Shown here piece by piece: positions 31,352 to 46,522 of a stretch of DNA of 64,000 nucleotides. The translations under genes and the position numbers were made by a program. The stretch covers positions 682,001-746,000 of the forward strand of contig NZ_JABWMJ010000001.1 of NCBI RefSeq assembly GCF_013366375.1, given 5' to 3'. The notes under the pieces were generated by a model. The model did no database searches. It worked only from the letters and a program-made list of their open reading frames with translations, and was not told the DNA's origin. The stretch comes from Rhizobacter koreensis. GTDB lineage: Bacteria; Pseudomonadota; Gammaproteobacteria; Burkholderiales; Burkholderiaceae_C. Within the stretch, counting starts at the first letter, position 1. Every line of letters starts with the position of its first letter.

Positions 31352-32635
31352 TCAGTACGTCTCGAGGTGCAGCCGGCCTTCGGCCTTGAGCGCCGGGCCG
31401 AGCCCGTCCCAGCCGATGCCGGCTTCCTCGGCGACGTCGCGCAACGCGAGCACGACGCCTTCTTCCATGCTCTTGAGCCCGCACACGTAGATGTACGTGT
31501 TGGCGTCCTTCAGCAGCGCGGCGAGATCGACCGCGCGCTCTCGCATCAGGTCCTGCACATAGCGCCTGGGCTGCCCCGGCACGCGCGAGAACGCGAGGTT
31601 GATGTCGATGAAGTCCTTCGGCAGGTTCTGCAGCGGCCCGAAGTAGGGCAGCTCCTGCGGCGAGCGCGCGCCGAAGAACAGCATCAGCTTGCCGCTCGCG
31701 AACTTGCCCGACTTGCGCAGGCGCCGGCGCCACTCGGTCATCGCGCGCATCGGCGCGCTGCCGGTGCCGGTGCAGATCATCACGATGTTCGAGTGCGGGT
31801 GGTTCGGCATCAGGAAGCTGCTGCCGAACGGGCCGATCACCTGCACGGTGTCGCCGACCTTGAGGTCGCACACGTAGTTCGAGCACACGCCGGCGGTCGG
31901 CCGGCCCTGGTGGTCCTCGGTCACGCGCTTGACCGTGAGCGAGACGTTGTTGTAGCCGGGGCGCTCGCCGTTGCGCGGGCTCGCGATCGAGTACTGGCGT
32001 GCCACGTGCGGCTTGCCGCGCGCGTCGACGCCGGGCGGCACGATGCCGATCGACTGGCCTTCGAGCACCGGGAACGGCATGTTGCCGAAGTCGAGCACGA
32101 CGTGATGCGTCTCGCTCGCGAAGCCGGCCTCGGTGCAGTTGAAGTTGCCGGTGACGGTGGCGGTGATCGGGTTCTTCGGGCCCCACACGTTCACGTACGC
32201 GCGCGCCGCCGACCACGGCGGCAGCGTCGAGCCCCAGGCGGCCGAGTTGAACGGCGCTTCGCCCGCGGCCGCGTCGGGGTCGACCGCGAGCACCGGCTCG
32301 GGCTCGACGGCCAGCGCGGTGTCGTGCGGCACGCCTTCAACTTCGAGCTGCTCGGGCGAGAGCTCGGCGGGCAGCTCGTCCCAGACCAGCTGCTCCTCGA
32401 CCGAGTACGCGCGCACCTGCGGCACGAGGCGCCAGTTGTCGATCGACCCGGTCGGGCACGGCGAGATGCAGTCCATGCAGAAGTTGCACTTGGTCGCGTC
32501 GACCACATAGTTGCGGTCGTCGTGGGTCACCGCGCCGACCGGGCAGGTCGCCTCGCAGGTGTTGCAGCGGATGCAGATCTCGGGGTCGATCAGGTGCTGC
32601 TTGAGCAACCCGGCCGGCGTCGCGGCGATGTCCAT
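31352..32635 (-). CDS. boxA: Benzoyl-CoA 2,3-epoxidase subunit A (reductase)
   Basis: 427 residues. The N-terminus carries two [4Fe-4S] clusters (C21-x2-C-x2-C-x3-C31 and C50-x2-C-x2-C-x3-C60). After a linker rich in Glu/Pro/Ala, a ferredoxin-NADP reductase-like module follows, with [12 protein letters not shown] for FAD and [14 protein letters not shown] for NADPH. BoxA passes electrons from NADPH to BoxB in the cytoplasm. Order boxC-boxB-boxA and near-normal length support a working protein. It lies 49 bases after boxB in the same operon. Confidence 0.96.
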
Positions 32636-34153: not shown

Positions 34154-35827
34154 CTAGACGCGGTCGAAGTCGAACTGGGCCTTGTCGCCCTTGCCGTAGA
34201 CCTTGAGCGCGCCCTTCTCGCCGACGGCGTTGGGGCGCTGGAAGATCCAGTTCTGCCAGGCCGTGAGGCGCCCGAAGATGCGCGTGAACATGTTCTCCGG
34301 GCCGTTGAAGCGCAGGTTCGCCTCCATGCCCGTCAGCGCGTCGGGCGACATCGCGGCGCGCTCCTCGAGCGCGATGCGGATCTCGTCGTCCCAGTCGATG
34401 TCGTCCGGGGCCGCGGTGGCCAGGCCGACCGCGAACGCGGCGTCGGCGTCGAGCCTGGTGCCGACGGTCGCGCGCACCGCGTCGAGCGCCGGCGCCTCCG
34501 CGTAGAAGCGGCGCTCGAGGCGCGACTGGCCGGTGACCATCGGGAAGAGGCCGAAGTTGGCCTCGCCGACCGCGATGGCCGGCGCGCGCTCGGGCTCGTC
34601 GGGCAAGGCGAGGTGGTAGATGCGGTCGGCGGCGAGCGCCAGTTCGAGCAGCGTGCCGGCGAAGCACGAGCCCGGCTCGACCAGCGCGAACAGGCTGCGC
34701 GACGACACGTCGAGGCGCGCGAAGGTGCGGCGCAGGAGGCCGATCGTCTCGCGCACCAGCCAGTGGCCGGCGTGCTCGGCGAGCACCGCGTCGATCGCGA
34801 GCACCGCGTCGGCCGCACCTTCCGTCTTGAGCAGCCAGGTGCCGATCTCGAGCTCGTTGGTGCGCATCTGCAGGATGGCGTCGTCGAGCTGGCGACCCAT
34901 CGCGAGCGGCCACCAGGCGGCGCCGGCGGCCTCGATCTCCGCCGGCGTGGTCGGTTGCGCGGCGCTCGGCGCCTTCACCGTGAACGTGGCGAGACGGCGC
35001 GCGCGGTCGATCTCGACGGTCACGAACTCGTAGACCAGCCGGTCGGCGTCGTACTCGGCCTCGAGCGGCGTCAGCGCGACGCCGCGCGCGTCGGCCGGGC
35101 GGTCGCTCTGCGCGGCGAGCTCCTCGGCGCGCTGCTGCACGCGGGCGGCGAACTGCTGCGGCTTGACCACCTCGTCGACAAGGCGCCATTCCTGCGCGCG
35201 CTTGCCGCGCACGCCTTCGCTGGTGGTGCAGAAGATGTCGGCGAGGTCGTGGCGGACCTTGCGCTTGTCGGTGACGCGGGTCAGGCCGCCGGTGCCCGGC
35301 AGCACGCCGAGCAGCGGCACTTCCGGGAGGCTCACCGCCGACGAGCGGTCGTCGATCAGCAGGATCTCGTCGCAGGCGAGGGCGAGCTCGTAGCCGCCGC
35401 CGGCGCAGGCGCCATTGACCGCGGCGATGAACTTGACCCCCGAGTGGGTCGACGAGTCCTCGATGCCGTTGCGCGTCTCGTTGGTGAACTTGCAGAAGTT
35501 CACCTTCCAGGCGTGGCTCGACAGGCCCAGCATGAAGATGTTCGCGCCGGAGCAGAACACGCGATCGCGCAGGCTGGTCACGACGACCGTGCGCACCTCC
35601 GGGTGCTCGAAGCGGACGCGGTTCAGCGCGTCGTGCAGCTCGATGTCGACGCCGAGGTCGTAGCTGTTGAGCTTGAGCTTGTAGCCGGGCTTCAGGCCCG
35701 CGTCCTCGTCGACCTTCATCGCGAGCGTCGCCACCGCGCCCTCGGTCGTCAGCGTCCAGTGACGGTAGTCGGCGGGCGACGTTCGGTAGTCGACGCGGTC
35801 GAGGCGGGTGCGGTCCGGTGCGTTCAT
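34154..35827 (-). CDS. boxC: Benzoyl-CoA-dihydrodiol lyase (2,3-epoxybenzoyl-CoA dihydrolase)
   Basis: 557 residues from ATG 35827, with CAGGAGACCGC just upstream; a longer frame starts 13 codons earlier. BoxC belongs to the crotonase superfamily with a duplicated domain. It hydrolyses the epoxide and opens the ring to 3,4-dehydroadipyl-CoA semialdehyde and formate. Visible are RTVVVTSLRDRVFCSGANIF with the first oxyanion hole, AAVNGACAGGGYELALACDE, and ALVEPGSCFAGTLLELALA in the second half. It is the first gene after boxR, behind its own promoter with an operator-like site. Confidence 0.97.
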   Translation of the reverse strand: MNAPDRTRLDRVDYRTSPADYRHWTLTTEGAVATLAMKVDEDAGLKPGYKLKLNSYDLGVDIELHDALNRVRFEHPEVRTVVVTSLRDRVFCSGANIFMLGLSSHAWKVNFCKFTNETRNGIEDSSTHSGVKFIAAVNGACAGGGYELALACDEILLIDDRSSAVSLPEVPLLGVLPGTGGLTRVTDKRKVRHDLADIFCTTSEGVRGKRAQEWRLVDEVVKPQQFAARVQQRAEELAAQSDRPADARGVALTPLEAEYDADRLVYEFVTVEIDRARRLATFTVKAPSAAQPTTPAEIEAAGAAWWPLAMGRQLDDAILQMRTNELEIGTWLLKTEGAADAVLAIDAVLAEHAGHWLVRETIGLLRRTFARLDVSSRSLFALVEPGSCFAGTLLELALAADRIYHLALPDEPERAPAIAVGEANFGLFPMVTGQSRLERRFYAEAPALDAVRATVGTRLDADAAFAVGLATAAPDDIDWDDEIRIALEERAAMSPDALTGMEANLRFNGPENMFTRIFGRLTAWQNWIFQRPNAVGEKGALKVYGKGDKAQFDFDRV

Positions 35828-35861
35828 GCGGTCTCCTGAGCTGACGGGCTGGCCAACCGCG

Positions 35862-35909
35862 TGCACTTTACTGCAATTGATCGCCGTGTCAAGCGGGCAC
35901 TTTAATGCT
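35862..35909 (-). promoter_or_regulatory. boxC promoter with BoxR operator-like sites
   Basis: On the minus strand TTGACA (35892-35887) and TAAAGT (35870-35865) are spaced 16 bases, a good sigma-70 promoter. TGCA-N6-TGCA (35862-35875) covers the -10, and a related 14-mer (35896-35909, 11 of 14 matches) lies just upstream of the -35 inside the end of boxR. The related regulator BzdR is known to recognise TGCA repeats of this form, so repression by BoxR relieved by benzoyl-CoA is expected. Confidence 0.65.
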
Positions 35910-36914
35910 TCTCGTCTGGGCGGCCGCCGGCAGCAGACTGCGCAGGCCGTCGATCGCCTGCCGCAGCGTCTTGCCCGAGGTGTCGAAGGTCGCGTCGGCC
36001 TTGCCGTAGAACGCCGCGCGACCGTCGAGGATGCGCTTGAGGTCCTGCATCGCCTCGCTGTTGCCGGCCATCGGGCGGAAGTCGCCCTGTGCGATCACGC
36101 GCTGCATGTGCTCTTCGGGGGACGCCTGCAGCCAGACCGTGAAGCAGCGCGACAGCAGCAGGTTGAAGGTCGCCGGCTCCGACACGATGCCGCCCGGCGT
36201 CGCGATCACCGCCTCCGGGTGCAGCTGCGTCGCTTCCTCGAGCGCGCGGCGCTCGTAGCGGCGGTACGCGGTCTGGCCGAGCAGCGAGTGGATCTCGTCG
36301 ACGCGGCAGCCGGCAAGGCGCTCGATCTCCTGGTTGAGCTCGACGAACGGCACCTGCATCGAGTCGGCAAGGGCGCGGCCGAGGGTCGACTTGCCGGCCC
36401 CGCGCAGCCCCACGAGCGCAATGCGGCGCAGGCGCTGGTCGGGCGCGGTGCTCGGGCCGAACGTGCCGGCGAGGAGCAGCCGCGCGCGGCGCAGCTCGTC
36501 GTCGTCGCGCCCGCGCAGCAGGTCGCGGATCAGCAGCCACTCGGGCGACGCGGTGGTCTCGTCGCCCACCAGCTCGGCGAGCGAGCAGTCGAGCGCCTGC
36601 GCGATCTGGCGCAGCACCAGCACCGACGCGTTGCCGACGCCGAGCTCGAGGTTGGCGAGGTGGCGCTCCGAGACGTCGGACTGCGCGGCGAGCGCGCGCC
36701 GCGTCATGCCCTTGCGCAGGCGCAGCGCGCGCGCGCGTTCGCCGAGCGCGGCGAGGAAGGGGCTGCGCTCGGCATCGCGCGGCTGCGCGGTCTCGGACGG
36801 GTCCGCCGGCGGGCCGTCAGGCGTGCCCCTCCCGGCGTCGGCTGCCGTGTCCGCGGCCGCCGCCGCATCTCCCGTCGAGTCGCCGACGCGATCCGGATCG
36901 AGTTCGCTGCTCAT
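35889..36914 (-). CDS. boxR: BoxR transcriptional regulator (XRE-shikimate kinase fusion)
   Basis: 341 residues. After an Ala/Asp-rich N-terminal 50 residues comes an XRE helix-turn-helix (LRLRKGMTRRALAAQSDVSE, then LANLELGVGNASVLVLRQIA). A linker leads to a shikimate-kinase-like domain with P-loop GLRGAGKSTLGRAL near residue 170 and IATPGGIVSEP. This architecture is that of BzdR/BoxR, which bind benzoyl-CoA as inducer. The N-terminal extension is longer than needed; a start at a later codon is possible. It lies 61 bases before boxC in the same direction and diverges from the DUF4863-ligase operon. Confidence 0.95.
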   Translation of the reverse strand: MSSELDPDRVGDSTGDAAAAADTAADAGRGTPDGPPADPSETAQPRDAERSPFLAALGERARALRLRKGMTRRALAAQSDVSERHLANLELGVGNASVLVLRQIAQALDCSLAELVGDETTASPEWLLIRDLLRGRDDDELRRARLLLAGTFGPSTAPDQRLRRIALVGLRGAGKSTLGRALADSMQVPFVELNQEIERLAGCRVDEIHSLLGQTAYRRYERRALEEATQLHPEAVIATPGGIVSEPATFNLLLSRCFTVWLQASPEEHMQRVIAQGDFRPMAGNSEAMQDLKRILDGRAAFYGKADATFDTSGKTLRQAIDGLRSLLPAAAQTRSIKVPA

Positions 36915-36931
36915 CAGTACTTACCCCGAAA

Positions 36932-36981
36932 TGCACTATATTGCTCTGATTTTGGGAGCGGTGCGGCTAAGATCGCGTGCA
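36932..36981. promoter_or_regulatory. boxR/DUF4863 divergent promoter with operator-like sites
   Basis: TGCACTATATTGCT (36932-36945) is TGCA-N6-TGCT, 11 of 14 matches to the boxC site, and it contains the likely boxR -10 (TATAGT on the minus strand, 36940-36935). A further half-site TGCAGTTTAGTACC starts at 36978, 30 bases before the DUF4863 start. The arrangement suggests BoxR represses itself and the divergent ligase/transporter operon. Confidence 0.55.
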
Positions 36982-37007
36982 GTTTAGTACCCGGTCCCGC
37001 CTGAACC

Positions 37008-37493
37008 ATGTTCGAACCCGAATTCGCGACCCTCGTCGCCGAACTCACGCAGCAGCTGCGCGGCGTGCCGCTCGATGCGGCGCTCGAGCAGCGCTTGAAC
37101 GCCGAGCACGGCCCGGGCACGCCCACGTTCGAGCGCCTGGCGGCGGCGTGCCGCGCCGGCGTCGCCGAGGGCTGGATGTGCCGCCAGGAAGCCGGCGGCA
37201 TCCGCTACGGCCGCGTGATCGCGGCGACGCCGGCGACCGGCGGCTTCTCGGTCGACGTCGTCGACATGAACGACGTCGCCGGGCCGAACCACGTCCACCC
37301 CAACGGCGAGATCGACATGGTGGTGCCGATGGACGGCGCGCCGACCTTCGACGGCCAGGGCGCCGGCTGGAAGGTCTACCCGCCCGGCAGCATGCATCAG
37401 CCGACCGTCACCGGCGGCCGCGCGCTGGTGCTCTACCTGCTGCCCGAAGGCAGCATCCGCTTCACCCGCGAGCGAGCCGCCGTCGCGGCCTGA
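37008..37493 (+). CDS. DUF4863-family protein
   Basis: 161 residues with a C-terminal cupin-like half: GPNHVHPNGEIDMVVPMDG supplies His and Glu at metal-ligand positions and PPGSMHQPTVTGG a second His. The DUF4863 family includes, to my knowledge, the 4-hydroxylaminobenzoate lyase PnbB; whether this member has that reaction is not shown. It is often found in box clusters. First gene of the rightward operon, 46 bases before the ligase. Likely a small cytoplasmic metal-dependent enzyme acting on benzoate derivatives. Confidence 0.8.
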   Translation: MFEPEFATLVAELTQQLRGVPLDAALEQRLNAEHGPGTPTFERLAAACRAGVAEGWMCRQEAGGIRYGRVIAATPATGGFSVDVVDMNDVAGPNHVHPNGEIDMVVPMDGAPTFDGQGAGWKVYPPGSMHQPTVTGGRALVLYLLPEGSIRFTRERAAVAA

Positions 37494-37539: not shown

Positions 37540-39153
37540 ATGGCCCATTCCGCTGCCGACGTCGCACCGCCGCCCGAGTCGTTCAACTTCGCGCGTCACC
37601 TGCTCGACGCCAACGCCGCGCGCGGCGCCAAGCCGGCGTACGTCGACGACGTCGGCGTGCTGGGCTACGACGCGCTCGCCGACGGCGTACGACGCGTCGC
37701 CGCGGCGCTGCAGGCGCTCGGCCTGCGCCGCGAGGAGCGCGTGCTGCTGCTGATGCACGACTGCGCACACTGGCCGCAGGCCTTCCTCGGCTGCCTGTAC
37801 GCGGGGGTCGTCCCGGTCGCCGTCAACACCATGCTCCCGGCGAGCGACTACGCCTACATGCTGCAGCACTCGCGCGCGCAGGCCGCGCTGGTCTCCGCGG
37901 CGCTGCTGCCGACGCTGCAGAGCGCGCTGGCGAGCGCGCCGCACGAGGTCGGCGCGCTCGTGGTCTCGCGCGGCGATGCCGGCGCGCTGCCGGCGAACGC
38001 GCACGACTTCGACGCGCTGCTCGCCGCCCACGCGCCGGCGGTGGCGCCAGCATCGACCTGTGCCGACGATCCGGCGTTCTGGCTCTACTCGTCGGGCTCG
38101 ACCGGCCGGCCCAAGGGCACCGTGCACTCGCACGCCAATCTCTACTGGACCGCCGAGCTCTACGCCAAGCCGGTGCTCGCGCTGCGCGAGAGCGACGTCT
38201 GCTTCTCAGCGGCCAAGCTGTTCTTCGCCTACGGCCTCGGCAACGCGCTGACGTTCCCGCTCGCGGTCGGCGCGACGACCATCCTGATGGCCGAGCGGCC
38301 GACGCCCGACGCCGTGTTCCGGCGCTGGACCGGGCAGACGCCGGTCCAGGCGGGCGCGTTCAGGCCGACGGTGTTCTTCGGTGCCCCGACCGGCTACGCC
38401 GGCATGCTGGCCTCGCCCAACCTGCCGGCGCGCAGCGAGGTGGCGCTGCGCCTCTGCTCGTCGGCGGGCGAGGCGCTGCCGCGCGACATCGGCGATCGTT
38501 TCACCGCCCGCTTCGGCGCCGAGATCATCGACGGCATCGGCTCGACCGAGATGCTGCACATCTTCCTGTCGAACCGCCCCGGGGACGTGCGCTACGGCAC
38601 CACCGGCAAGCCGGTGCCCGGCTACACGGTCGAGCTGCGCGACGAGGCCGGCCGCGTGATCGACGGCGCCGACCAGATCGGCGACCTCTTCATCGACGGT
38701 CCGTCGGCCGCGCTCATGTACTGGGGCAACCGCGAGAAGAGCCGCGACACCTTCCGCGGCTGCTGGACCAAGAGCGGCGACAAGTACGTGCGCGACGCCG
38801 ACGGCTACTACATCTACGCCGGGCGCGGCGACGACATGCTCAAGGTGAGCGGCCAGTACGTCTCGCCGTTCGAGGTCGAGTCGACGCTGATGCAGCACCC
38901 GTCGGTGCTCGAGGCGGCGGTGATCGGCGTCGCCGACGAGCAGGGGCTGACGCGCGCCAAGGCGTACGTGGTGCTCAAGGACGCCGGCCTCGCAGACGAC
39001 GCGTTCGCCGACGAGCTGCGCCAGTTCGTCAAGAGCCGGCTCGCGCCGCACAAGTACCCGCGCCTGGTGGAGTTCGTGGCCGAGTTGCCGAAGACGGCCA
39101 CCGGCAAGATCCAGCGCTTCCGGCTGCGCGAGCAGGCGCAAGCCGCTTCATGA
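37540..39153 (+). CDS. bclA: Benzoate-CoA ligase
   Basis: 537 residues of the ANL adenylation superfamily. Motifs seen: P-loop-like YSSGSTGRPKGTVHSH near residue 185, the aromatic-binding KLFFAYGLGNALTFP, DGIGSTEMLHIFLSN (A5), the YYIYAGRGDDMLKVSGQYVSP hinge and the catalytic Lys in TGKIQRFRLRE near the C-terminus. The set KLFFAYGLGN and GSTEMLHIFLSN are typical of benzoate-CoA ligases rather than acetyl-CoA or fatty acyl-CoA enzymes. It makes benzoyl-CoA from benzoate, CoA and ATP in the cytoplasm, the entry step of the box route. Overlaps the next gene by ATGA. Confidence 0.93.
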   Translation: MAHSAADVAPPPESFNFARHLLDANAARGAKPAYVDDVGVLGYDALADGVRRVAAALQALGLRREERVLLLMHDCAHWPQAFLGCLYAGVVPVAVNTMLPASDYAYMLQHSRAQAALVSAALLPTLQSALASAPHEVGALVVSRGDAGALPANAHDFDALLAAHAPAVAPASTCADDPAFWLYSSGSTGRPKGTVHSHANLYWTAELYAKPVLALRESDVCFSAAKLFFAYGLGNALTFPLAVGATTILMAERPTPDAVFRRWTGQTPVQAGAFRPTVFFGAPTGYAGMLASPNLPARSEVALRLCSSAGEALPRDIGDRFTARFGAEIIDGIGSTEMLHIFLSNRPGDVRYGTTGKPVPGYTVELRDEAGRVIDGADQIGDLFIDGPSAALMYWGNREKSRDTFRGCWTKSGDKYVRDADGYYIYAGRGDDMLKVSGQYVSPFEVESTLMQHPSVLEAAVIGVADEQGLTRAKAYVVLKDAGLADDAFADELRQFVKSRLAPHKYPRLVEFVAELPKTATGKIQRFRLREQAQAAS

Positions 39154-44971: not shown

Positions 44972-46417
44972 TCAAACCGCCATGATCGACACGGCCTTCG
45001 TCACCACGTAGGCCTCCATGGCCTCCGGGCCGCCTTCCGAGCCGTAGCCGGAATCCTTGACGCCGCCGAACGGCATCTCGGGGCTGGGGGCGGCGGGCTG
45101 GTTGATCCAGAGCATGCCCACTTCGACTTCCTGCGAGAGCTGGTGCGCGTTCTTGATCGAGCGGGTGAAGGCGTAGCCGGCAAGGCCATACGGCAGGCGG
45201 TTCGATTCCGCGATCGCCTCGTCGAGCGTGTCGAAGCCGCGGATCGCCGCGATCGGGCCGAACGGCTCCTCGTTGAAGACGTCGGCCTCGAGCGGCACGT
45301 CGGTCAGCACGGTGGGCGCGAAGAAGTTGCCGGCGCTGCCGACGCGGTCGCCACCGGTGGCGATGGTCGCGCCCTTGGCGCGCGCGTTCTCGAGCACCTT
45401 GCTCATGGCCTGCAGGCGGCGCGTGTTGGCGAGCGGGCCGAGCGTGGTGCCTTCGGCGAGGCCGTCGCCGAGCTTGAGGCCCTCGGCGTGCTTGACCAGC
45501 GCCTCGGCGAACTCGCGCTTGATGCTGTTGTGGACCAGGAAACGGGTCGGCGAGATGCACACCTGGCCCGCGTTGCGGAACTTGGCGCCGCCCGACGCCT
45601 TGACCGCCAGCGCGACGTCGGCGTCGTCGCAGACGATCACCGGCGCGTGGCCGCCGAGCTCCATCGTGGCCCGCTTCATGTGCTGGCCGGCCATCGCGGC
45701 GAGCTGCTTGCCGACCGCAGTCGAGCCGGTGAACGTGACCTTGCGGATGATCGGGTGCGGAATCAGGTAGCTCGAGATCTCGGCCGGGTTGCCGAACACG
45801 AGGCCGATCACGCCCTTCGGAATGCCAGCGTCGACGAAGGCCTGCAGCAGCGCGGCGGGCGAGGCGGGGGTCTCTTCCGGCGCCTTCACGAGAAACGAGC
45901 AGCCGGTCGCCAGCGACGCGGCGAGCTTGCGGACGACCTGGTTGATCGGGAAGTTCCACGGCGTGAACGCCGCGACCGGGCCGATCGGCTCCTTCAGCAC
46001 GAGCTGCTGCGCGGCGAGGTTGCGCGACGGCACGATGCGGCCGTAGACGCGGCGGCCCTCGTCGGCGAACCACTCGATGATGTCGGCCGCGGCGAGTGCC
46101 TCGATGCGGGCCTCGGCGTACGGCTTGCCCTGTTCCTGGGTCAGCACGCGGCCGATGTCCGCGGCGCGCTCGCGCACCAGGCCGGCGGCCTTGCGCATGA
46201 TCGCGGCGCGCTCGTTGGCGGGCACCTTGCGCCACGTCTCGAAGCCCCGCTGCGCGGCGGCCAGCGCCCGGTCGAGATCGGGAATGCCGGCGTGCGCAAC
46301 CTTGCCGATCGGCTCGCCGGTGGCCGGGTTGTGCACGTCGAGCGTCTTGCCGCTCGCGGCGTCGCACCACTCGTTGTCGATCAGGAGGCGGGTATCGGGG
46401 TAGCGGGACGCGGTCAT
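44972..46417 (-). CDS. NAD(P)-dependent aldehyde dehydrogenase (GabD-like)
   Basis: 481 residues from ATG 46417. Catalytic Glu is in [11 protein letters not shown] near residue 253 and catalytic Cys in [14 protein letters not shown] near 287; [10 protein letters not shown] and [11 protein letters not shown] are typical cofactor and fold motifs. The overall pattern, including TLGPLAN and the C-terminal [13 protein letters not shown], is that of succinate- or glutarate-semialdehyde dehydrogenases. BoxD, the aldehyde dehydrogenase of the box route, is of a different aldehyde dehydrogenase type, but none is present here; this gene next to the cluster may oxidise a semialdehyde from it. That is inference. 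Confidence 0.9.
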
Positions 46418-46522
46418 GCGAGGCTCCGGAGCAAAACCAGCATGATGCCGCGAGACGCCTGCCCCGTGCAGACGCAAGGCTTGCCGCGGCCGCCCGACCG
46501 CGCGTCGCGCGGCCGGCCGTCG

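Follow-up and report, generated by a model that had tools for sequence, protein, structure and literature searches.

Are the TGCA palindromes at the promoters of this benzoate-degradation (box) locus operators of its regulator BoxR, and how are they placed relative to the promoter elements? The locus lies within the window, the whole 64 kb stretch of DNA analyzed here, and positions 35862-36981 span the boxC upstream region, boxR, and then the gap to a divergent plus-strand gene. The relevant genes are as follows.

31352-32635, minus strand: boxA (TIGR03224, 732.2 bits; cut-off 459.2)
34154-35827, minus strand: boxC, 2,3-epoxybenzoyl-CoA dihydrolase (TIGR03222, 964.6 bits; cut-off 712.3)
35889-36914, minus strand: boxR (PF01381 at 62-115, PF01202 at 171-320; NF006015, 446.9 bits; cut-off 204)
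37008-37493, plus strand: pnbB-like gene of the PnbB family, called DUF4863 in the sequence-only reading (PF16155, E 3.1e-54)
37540-39153, plus strand: bclA, benzoate-CoA ligase family (TIGR02262, 782.9 bits; cut-off 375.25)

The boxR product is an XRE helix-turn-helix domain (HTH_3) fused to a shikimate-kinase-like domain, and box genes named by curated models (boxC, boxA, and bclA) adjoin its gene. The genome contains one full-length boxR match, the other four matches being partial, and across the 119 context loci BoxR keeps a conserved helix-turn-helix segment that includes SERhlAnlE-G-GN-S. The sole genome match above the cut-off of NF008868, which we take to be the model for boxD, is on another contig (C12:72854-74383; L214, L223); 2 of 14 control genomes also have a match above the cut-off of this model. 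An aldehyde dehydrogenase in the window (44972-46477, minus strand) scores 80.8 bits against NF008868 (cut-off 444), and its best NCBIfam model is succinate-semialdehyde dehydrogenase, at 468.7 bits, below the cut-off of 646.35. The contig C12 dehydrogenase adjoins a frame judged by eye to encode an ABC transporter substrate-binding protein, and no place above 3.1 bits by the BoxR matrix described below was found near it in the 7 kb taken.

Much of the architecture to be expected at such a locus has been published. The accessible text of Suvorova and Gelfand 2019 (PMC6449761), which cites Valderrama et al. 2012 for BoxR, gives a BoxR/BzdR palindrome, ATGCACTATAGTGCAT, present as multiple sites mainly three to five turns apart, and a divergon of boxR-boxCBA versus an operon with bclA, a pfam16155 gene, and a lactonase, of which some genes may be missing. 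Repression by BoxR depends on benzoyl-CoA according to the available portion of PMC4424350. For the related regulator BzdR of Azoarcus sp. CIB, the accessible portion of PMC6678401 describes operators over the PN promoter and four to five dimers forming a superstructure; one of the operator regions has a TGCA(N15)TGCA element and is footprinted from -32 to +31.

The sequence-only reading had proposed four TGCA-N6-TGCA operators or relatives at this locus, all of which were found where it had placed them. The window has one perfect copy of the bare formula where 0.69 are expected, and allowing one mismatch gives 17 copies where 18.8 are expected; the formula was rejected as evidence because these counts are at chance, and it would therefore not carry the claim. 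A symmetric weight matrix was built instead from 363 sites found upstream of boxR and boxC in 118 related loci, with the window excluded; input sites matched the published consensus at 12 or more of 16 positions, and the matrix is thus seeded with that palindrome. By this matrix the four sites are the four best-scoring places in the 64 kb window.

35861-35876, no strand: boxC operator 1 (16.8 bits, rank 2), containing the boxC -10; core 35862-35875, TGCACTTTACTGCA
35895-35910, no strand: boxC operator 2 (16.5 bits, rank 3), inside the boxR 3' end and just upstream of the boxC -35; core 35896-35909, AGCATTAAAGTGCC on the minus strand
36931-36946, no strand: boxR-proximal operator (24.2 bits, rank 1); core 36932-36945, TGCACTATATTGCT
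36977-36992, no strand: distal site, where the divergent operon is predicted to start (6.8 bits, rank 4); core 36978-36991, TGCAGTTTAGTACC

In 6 Mb of first-order Markov sequence, the numbers expected per 64 kb at scores of 24.2, 16.8, 16.5, and 6.8 bits were 0.0000 (none seen), 0.03, 0.04, and 4.0, respectively. Three sites are thus strong and match the published palindrome ATGCACTATAGTGCAT; the sequence of the fourth scores no better than chance. The TGCACTTTACTGCA core of operator 1 is the only perfect TGCA-N6-TGCA in the window. The site described as an 11/14 relative inside boxR was recovered as operator 2, whose core lies in the last boxR codons and is identical to TGCAGTAAAGTGCA at 11 of 14 positions. 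The site reported over the boxR TATAGT (36935-36940, minus strand) has the top score in the window, so that the strongest site is the boxR one and not the boxC one, which corrects the sequence-only reading. The site said to face the PnbB/DUF4863 gene does precede that gene, 46 bp from the proximal operator, and the distal site of relatives is similarly placed (most commonly at 49-51 bp); it is credible only by its place, because its score is one that chance supplies.

Across the 5.58 Mb genome, the core GCANTWTANTGC occurs at four places, three of them at the box locus, and the control gave none forward and one in reverse. The looser TGCACTWTANTGCA with up to two mismatches gave 10+9 matches genome-wide, against 10+10 for the control; its sole perfect and sole single-mismatch matches are both at the box locus and, since the two-mismatch set is at control level, only these stand out. 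The fourth core match, C41:98676, between frames read by eye as carB and greA, scores 11.6 bits; it was taken as chance and rejected as a regulon member. Outside the box locus there are 12 two-mismatch places, and the six that were scored (L118, L119, L122, L125, L127, and L129) have 5.9-11.6 bits. Bases 1567-1582 of L127 (G000 contig C38) score 10.9 bits, and one of the two-mismatch matches, at 6.2 bits, lies 67 bases away.

Orthologous regions were compared, the check that the sequence-only reading had suggested. Loci came from the best 80 of 90 relatives; from a family search matching 210 of 399 genomes, which supplied 29 new loci and the window's own; from a further 80 regions hand-picked among the family matches listed, roughly by rank and with some matches skipped; and from another search (5) and a motif search (15). 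Of 209 collected, the 15 from the motif search were set aside; 190 loci passed the boxR filter, and removal of 4 near-duplicates left 186. In 119 of the 186, including the window, boxC is codirectional and at most 400 bases from the boxR stop, and the other 67 were counted separately.

The motif is well kept in these relatives. A site matching at least 12 of 16 positions is present before boxR in 113 of 118 loci, before boxC in 109, and before both in 105, counts that are neither independent nor probabilities, since the loci are related and no tree correction was applied; 60 scrambled palindromes gave means of 0.8, 1.1, and 0.03 loci, respectively, with maxima of 5, 22, and 1. At a 9-bit cut-off, two or more sites are found on the boxR side in 101 of 119 loci and on the boxC side in 111, none being found in 3 and 2 loci, respectively. 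At this cut-off the two flanks of the 119 loci hold 242 and 295 sites, versus 3 inside the boxR coding bodies. A boxC-side site centered at or before the boxR stop occurs in 32 of the 119 loci (window included), and the intragenic operator of the window is therefore not unusual. Among the 67 boxR homologs outside the strict box arrangement, 44 have an upstream site of at least 12 bits; the 23 without one are all 39-56% identical to the window's BoxR.

These data bear directly on what the four sites are. That the palindromes arose by chance, or merely reflect the AT-richness of promoter cores in a GC-rich genome and are not used by BoxR, could draw on the chance-level counts of the bare formula in the window and of the two-mismatch motif genome-wide, and on the -10 hexamers that form part of the sites. 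Against this, the full palindrome precedes both genes in most relatives, far above the scrambled controls, and usually at two or more sites per side, which is more than a single -10 would need; we consider this reading extremely improbable. Hardly more probable is binding by another regulator, for example an activator of the XylS/BenR type, whose published site, TGCA-N6-GGNTA, resembles the palindrome in one half-site in the accessible parts of PMC6449761 and PMC6678401. The palindrome that describes the sites of relatives ends in TGCA on both sides, within the limit that it also served as the seed of the matrix, and the motif accompanies boxR homologs outside the strict box arrangement, in the 44 of 67 cases given above. 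The four sites are therefore very probably BoxR operators, which would act by promoter-overlapping repression. Sequence conservation strongly supports a BoxR regulon that takes in boxR, boxCBA, and the divergent pnbB-bclA operon, and the published motif and divergon agree with it; of the regulon of both divergent operons that had been proposed, it is the divergent side that is weak in the window compared with many relatives.

The boxC promoter is the clearest case of overlap between operator and promoter.

35887-35892, minus strand: boxC -35, TTGACA (from the sequence and a promoter scan), containing the boxR stop TGA (35889-35891)
35865-35870, minus strand: boxC -10, TAAAGT, spacer 16 (promoter scan), inside operator 1

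A TGCA-N6-TGCA does lie, as had been claimed, on the -10 of a TTGACA-16-TAAAGT boxC promoter (minus strand, 35892-35865), which is the only sigma-70-like site in 35700-37100 (shuffles average 0.0). In 78 of 118 relatives, a TTGACA matching at 5 or more positions of 6 starts 16-18 bases before a boxC-side operator (offset -17 in 43 loci, -18 in 24, and -16 in 11), a distance at which operator bases 7-12 would be the -10; a -35 of this quality is absent at the boxC distance in the other 40. TAnnnT stands at operator bases 7-12 in at least 52 of the 78 (52 among the 76 tabulated), and poor -10s at this position include CATGAT (7) and GATGAT (4). A stricter search found a TTG-type promoter with TAnnnT in 63 of 119 loci, window included, and in 59 of these 63 the -10 is exactly operator bases 7-12. 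Other -35 offsets on the boxC side are -50 (21 loci), 24 (18), 14 (17), -5 (13), and -59 (12), with 15 (21) on the other strand; those near -50 and 14 fit a neighboring operator about 32 bp away, and the rest are unexplained.

On the boxR side, one operator appears to serve two promoters.

36945-36950, plus strand: place of the divergent -35, reading TCTGAT, a 1/6 match to TTGACA that is unrecognizable as a -35
36968-36973, plus strand: TAAGAT, predicted to be the -10 of the divergent pnbB-bclA operon, at a spacing of exactly 17 bp from the conserved -35 place

Bases 7-12 of the boxR-proximal operator read TATAGT (37 loci), TATATT (24), TAAAGT (15), or TATAAT (11) in 87 of the 116 loci with the site. 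In 70 of 115 relatives, though not in the window, the reverse strand has a TTGACA-like hexamer (at least 5/6) that shares two bases with this operator, and no other offset of a reverse -35 within 60 bases is used by more than 6 loci. In the 70 loci with the divergent -35, TAnnnT follows exactly 17 bp on in 56, 16 bp on in 5, and 18 bp on in 6. A looser test with the -35 at 4/6 (116 loci, window included) gave both elements in 53, the -35 only in 22, the -10 only in 6, among them the window, and neither in 35. The boxC-side logos lack the TGTC extension, which was therefore read as a promoter element rather than an operator part. The promoter scan of 35700-37100 gave no sigma-70-like boxR promoter or boxR -35, and the logo of relatives has no conserved boxR -35. 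With TCTGAT at the -35 place and a weak distal site at 46 bp, the divergent side of the window looks partly decayed, or otherwise served.

On balance, the alignments favor a conserved interlock, in which the boxR-proximal operator holds the boxR -10 and overlaps the divergent -35, and the center of a boxC operator is the -10, an arrangement that would be partly decayed in the window. If this is true, one dimer sets the repressor level together with the production of the ligase, and hence of the inducer; the divergent operon holds a benzoate-CoA ligase in the window and in many relatives. No description of the -10/-35 interlock was met in the accessible literature, including PMC6449761, and one may be published elsewhere. 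Only in the interlock do the results go further than both the sequence-only reading and the literature examined. Motif, multiplicity, spacing, and divergon are already published in the accessible text of PMC6449761, and the window holds a correctly recognized and conserved feature of a known kind.

Within each pair, the sites of the window are 34 bp (boxC) and 46 bp (boxR) apart center to center, roughly 3.2 and 4.4 turns, which agrees with the published spacing of mainly three to five turns. In relatives, boxC-side spacings peak at 30-34 bp (94 of 178); on the boxR side the peak is at 49-51 bp (51 of 126), and lesser clusters occur around 26 and 30. The vector strength of neighboring sites at 10.5 bp is 0.34 on the boxR side (126 spacings) and 0.50 on the boxC side (178), and it is similar at neighboring periods, so helical phasing of adjacent sites is not decisive. 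Side-by-side BoxR binding at adjacent sites, one of two modes suggested earlier, is plausible from these distances. The other, looping across boxR (1070 bp), found no support. A repression loop in which BoxR on the boxC pair and the boxR pair bridges 1.07 kb has in its favor the two site clusters of the window and the example of BzdR, which wraps PN with four to five dimers on three operator regions (accessible text of PMC6678401), but the distance between the clusters varies from 888 to 1251 bp among 114 loci and is without helical phasing (vector strength 0.10 at 10.5 bp; highest value, 0.19, at 11.25), and we regard such a loop as unlikely.

As far as the accessible texts go, the locus is like the BoxR divergon of Betaproteobacteria (PMC6449761) in its palindrome, several sites, and divergent layout, and it differs in that its distal site and divergent -35 are weak and its boxD candidate is on another contig. 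It shares with BzdR/PN of Azoarcus sp. CIB (PMC6678401) a related regulator, TGCA(N6)TGCA operators, an operator over the promoter, and, if BoxR binds as predicted, several dimers per promoter, whereas that system governs anaerobic bzd genes through three operator regions and the box sites of the window form two separate pairs. The sites, their conservation, and their alignment with promoter-like elements are observed in the DNA; for binding, repression, and inducer we rely on the published Azoarcus BoxR/BzdR work. By that precedent, BoxR dimers would occupy palindromes whose AT-rich center is at the same time a -10 element. At boxC, RNA polymerase would be kept off boxCBA by two dimers, one covering the -10 and the other bound immediately upstream of the -35. 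At boxR, a dimer on the -10 would bring about autorepression and, without moving, would also overlap the -35 place of the promoter of pnbB-bclA, the divergent operon; the weak fourth site lies where that operon starts. BclA would supply benzoyl-CoA, which by analogy is expected to release BoxR.

The comparison thus confirms a predicted benzoate switch in a new genome, one that would turn on the benzoate-degrading genes only when needed. It also suggests a design rule, in which operator centers are -10 elements and one operator couples the repressor promoter to the inducer-making operon; such a rule would explain the constrained spacing of the sites and could help in building benzoyl-CoA sensor promoters.

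Two minor observations concern the bases just past the boxR-proximal operator. A loose GGGG-TTAN-CCCC consensus is found there in 25 relatives with 49 bp pairs; the window has the GGGG and lacks the CCCC. In four loci of the same genus (L103, L108, L111, and L130), an in-frame ATG lies 1-2 bases past the operator, near the expected transcription start, and the boxR message may be leaderless in these four.
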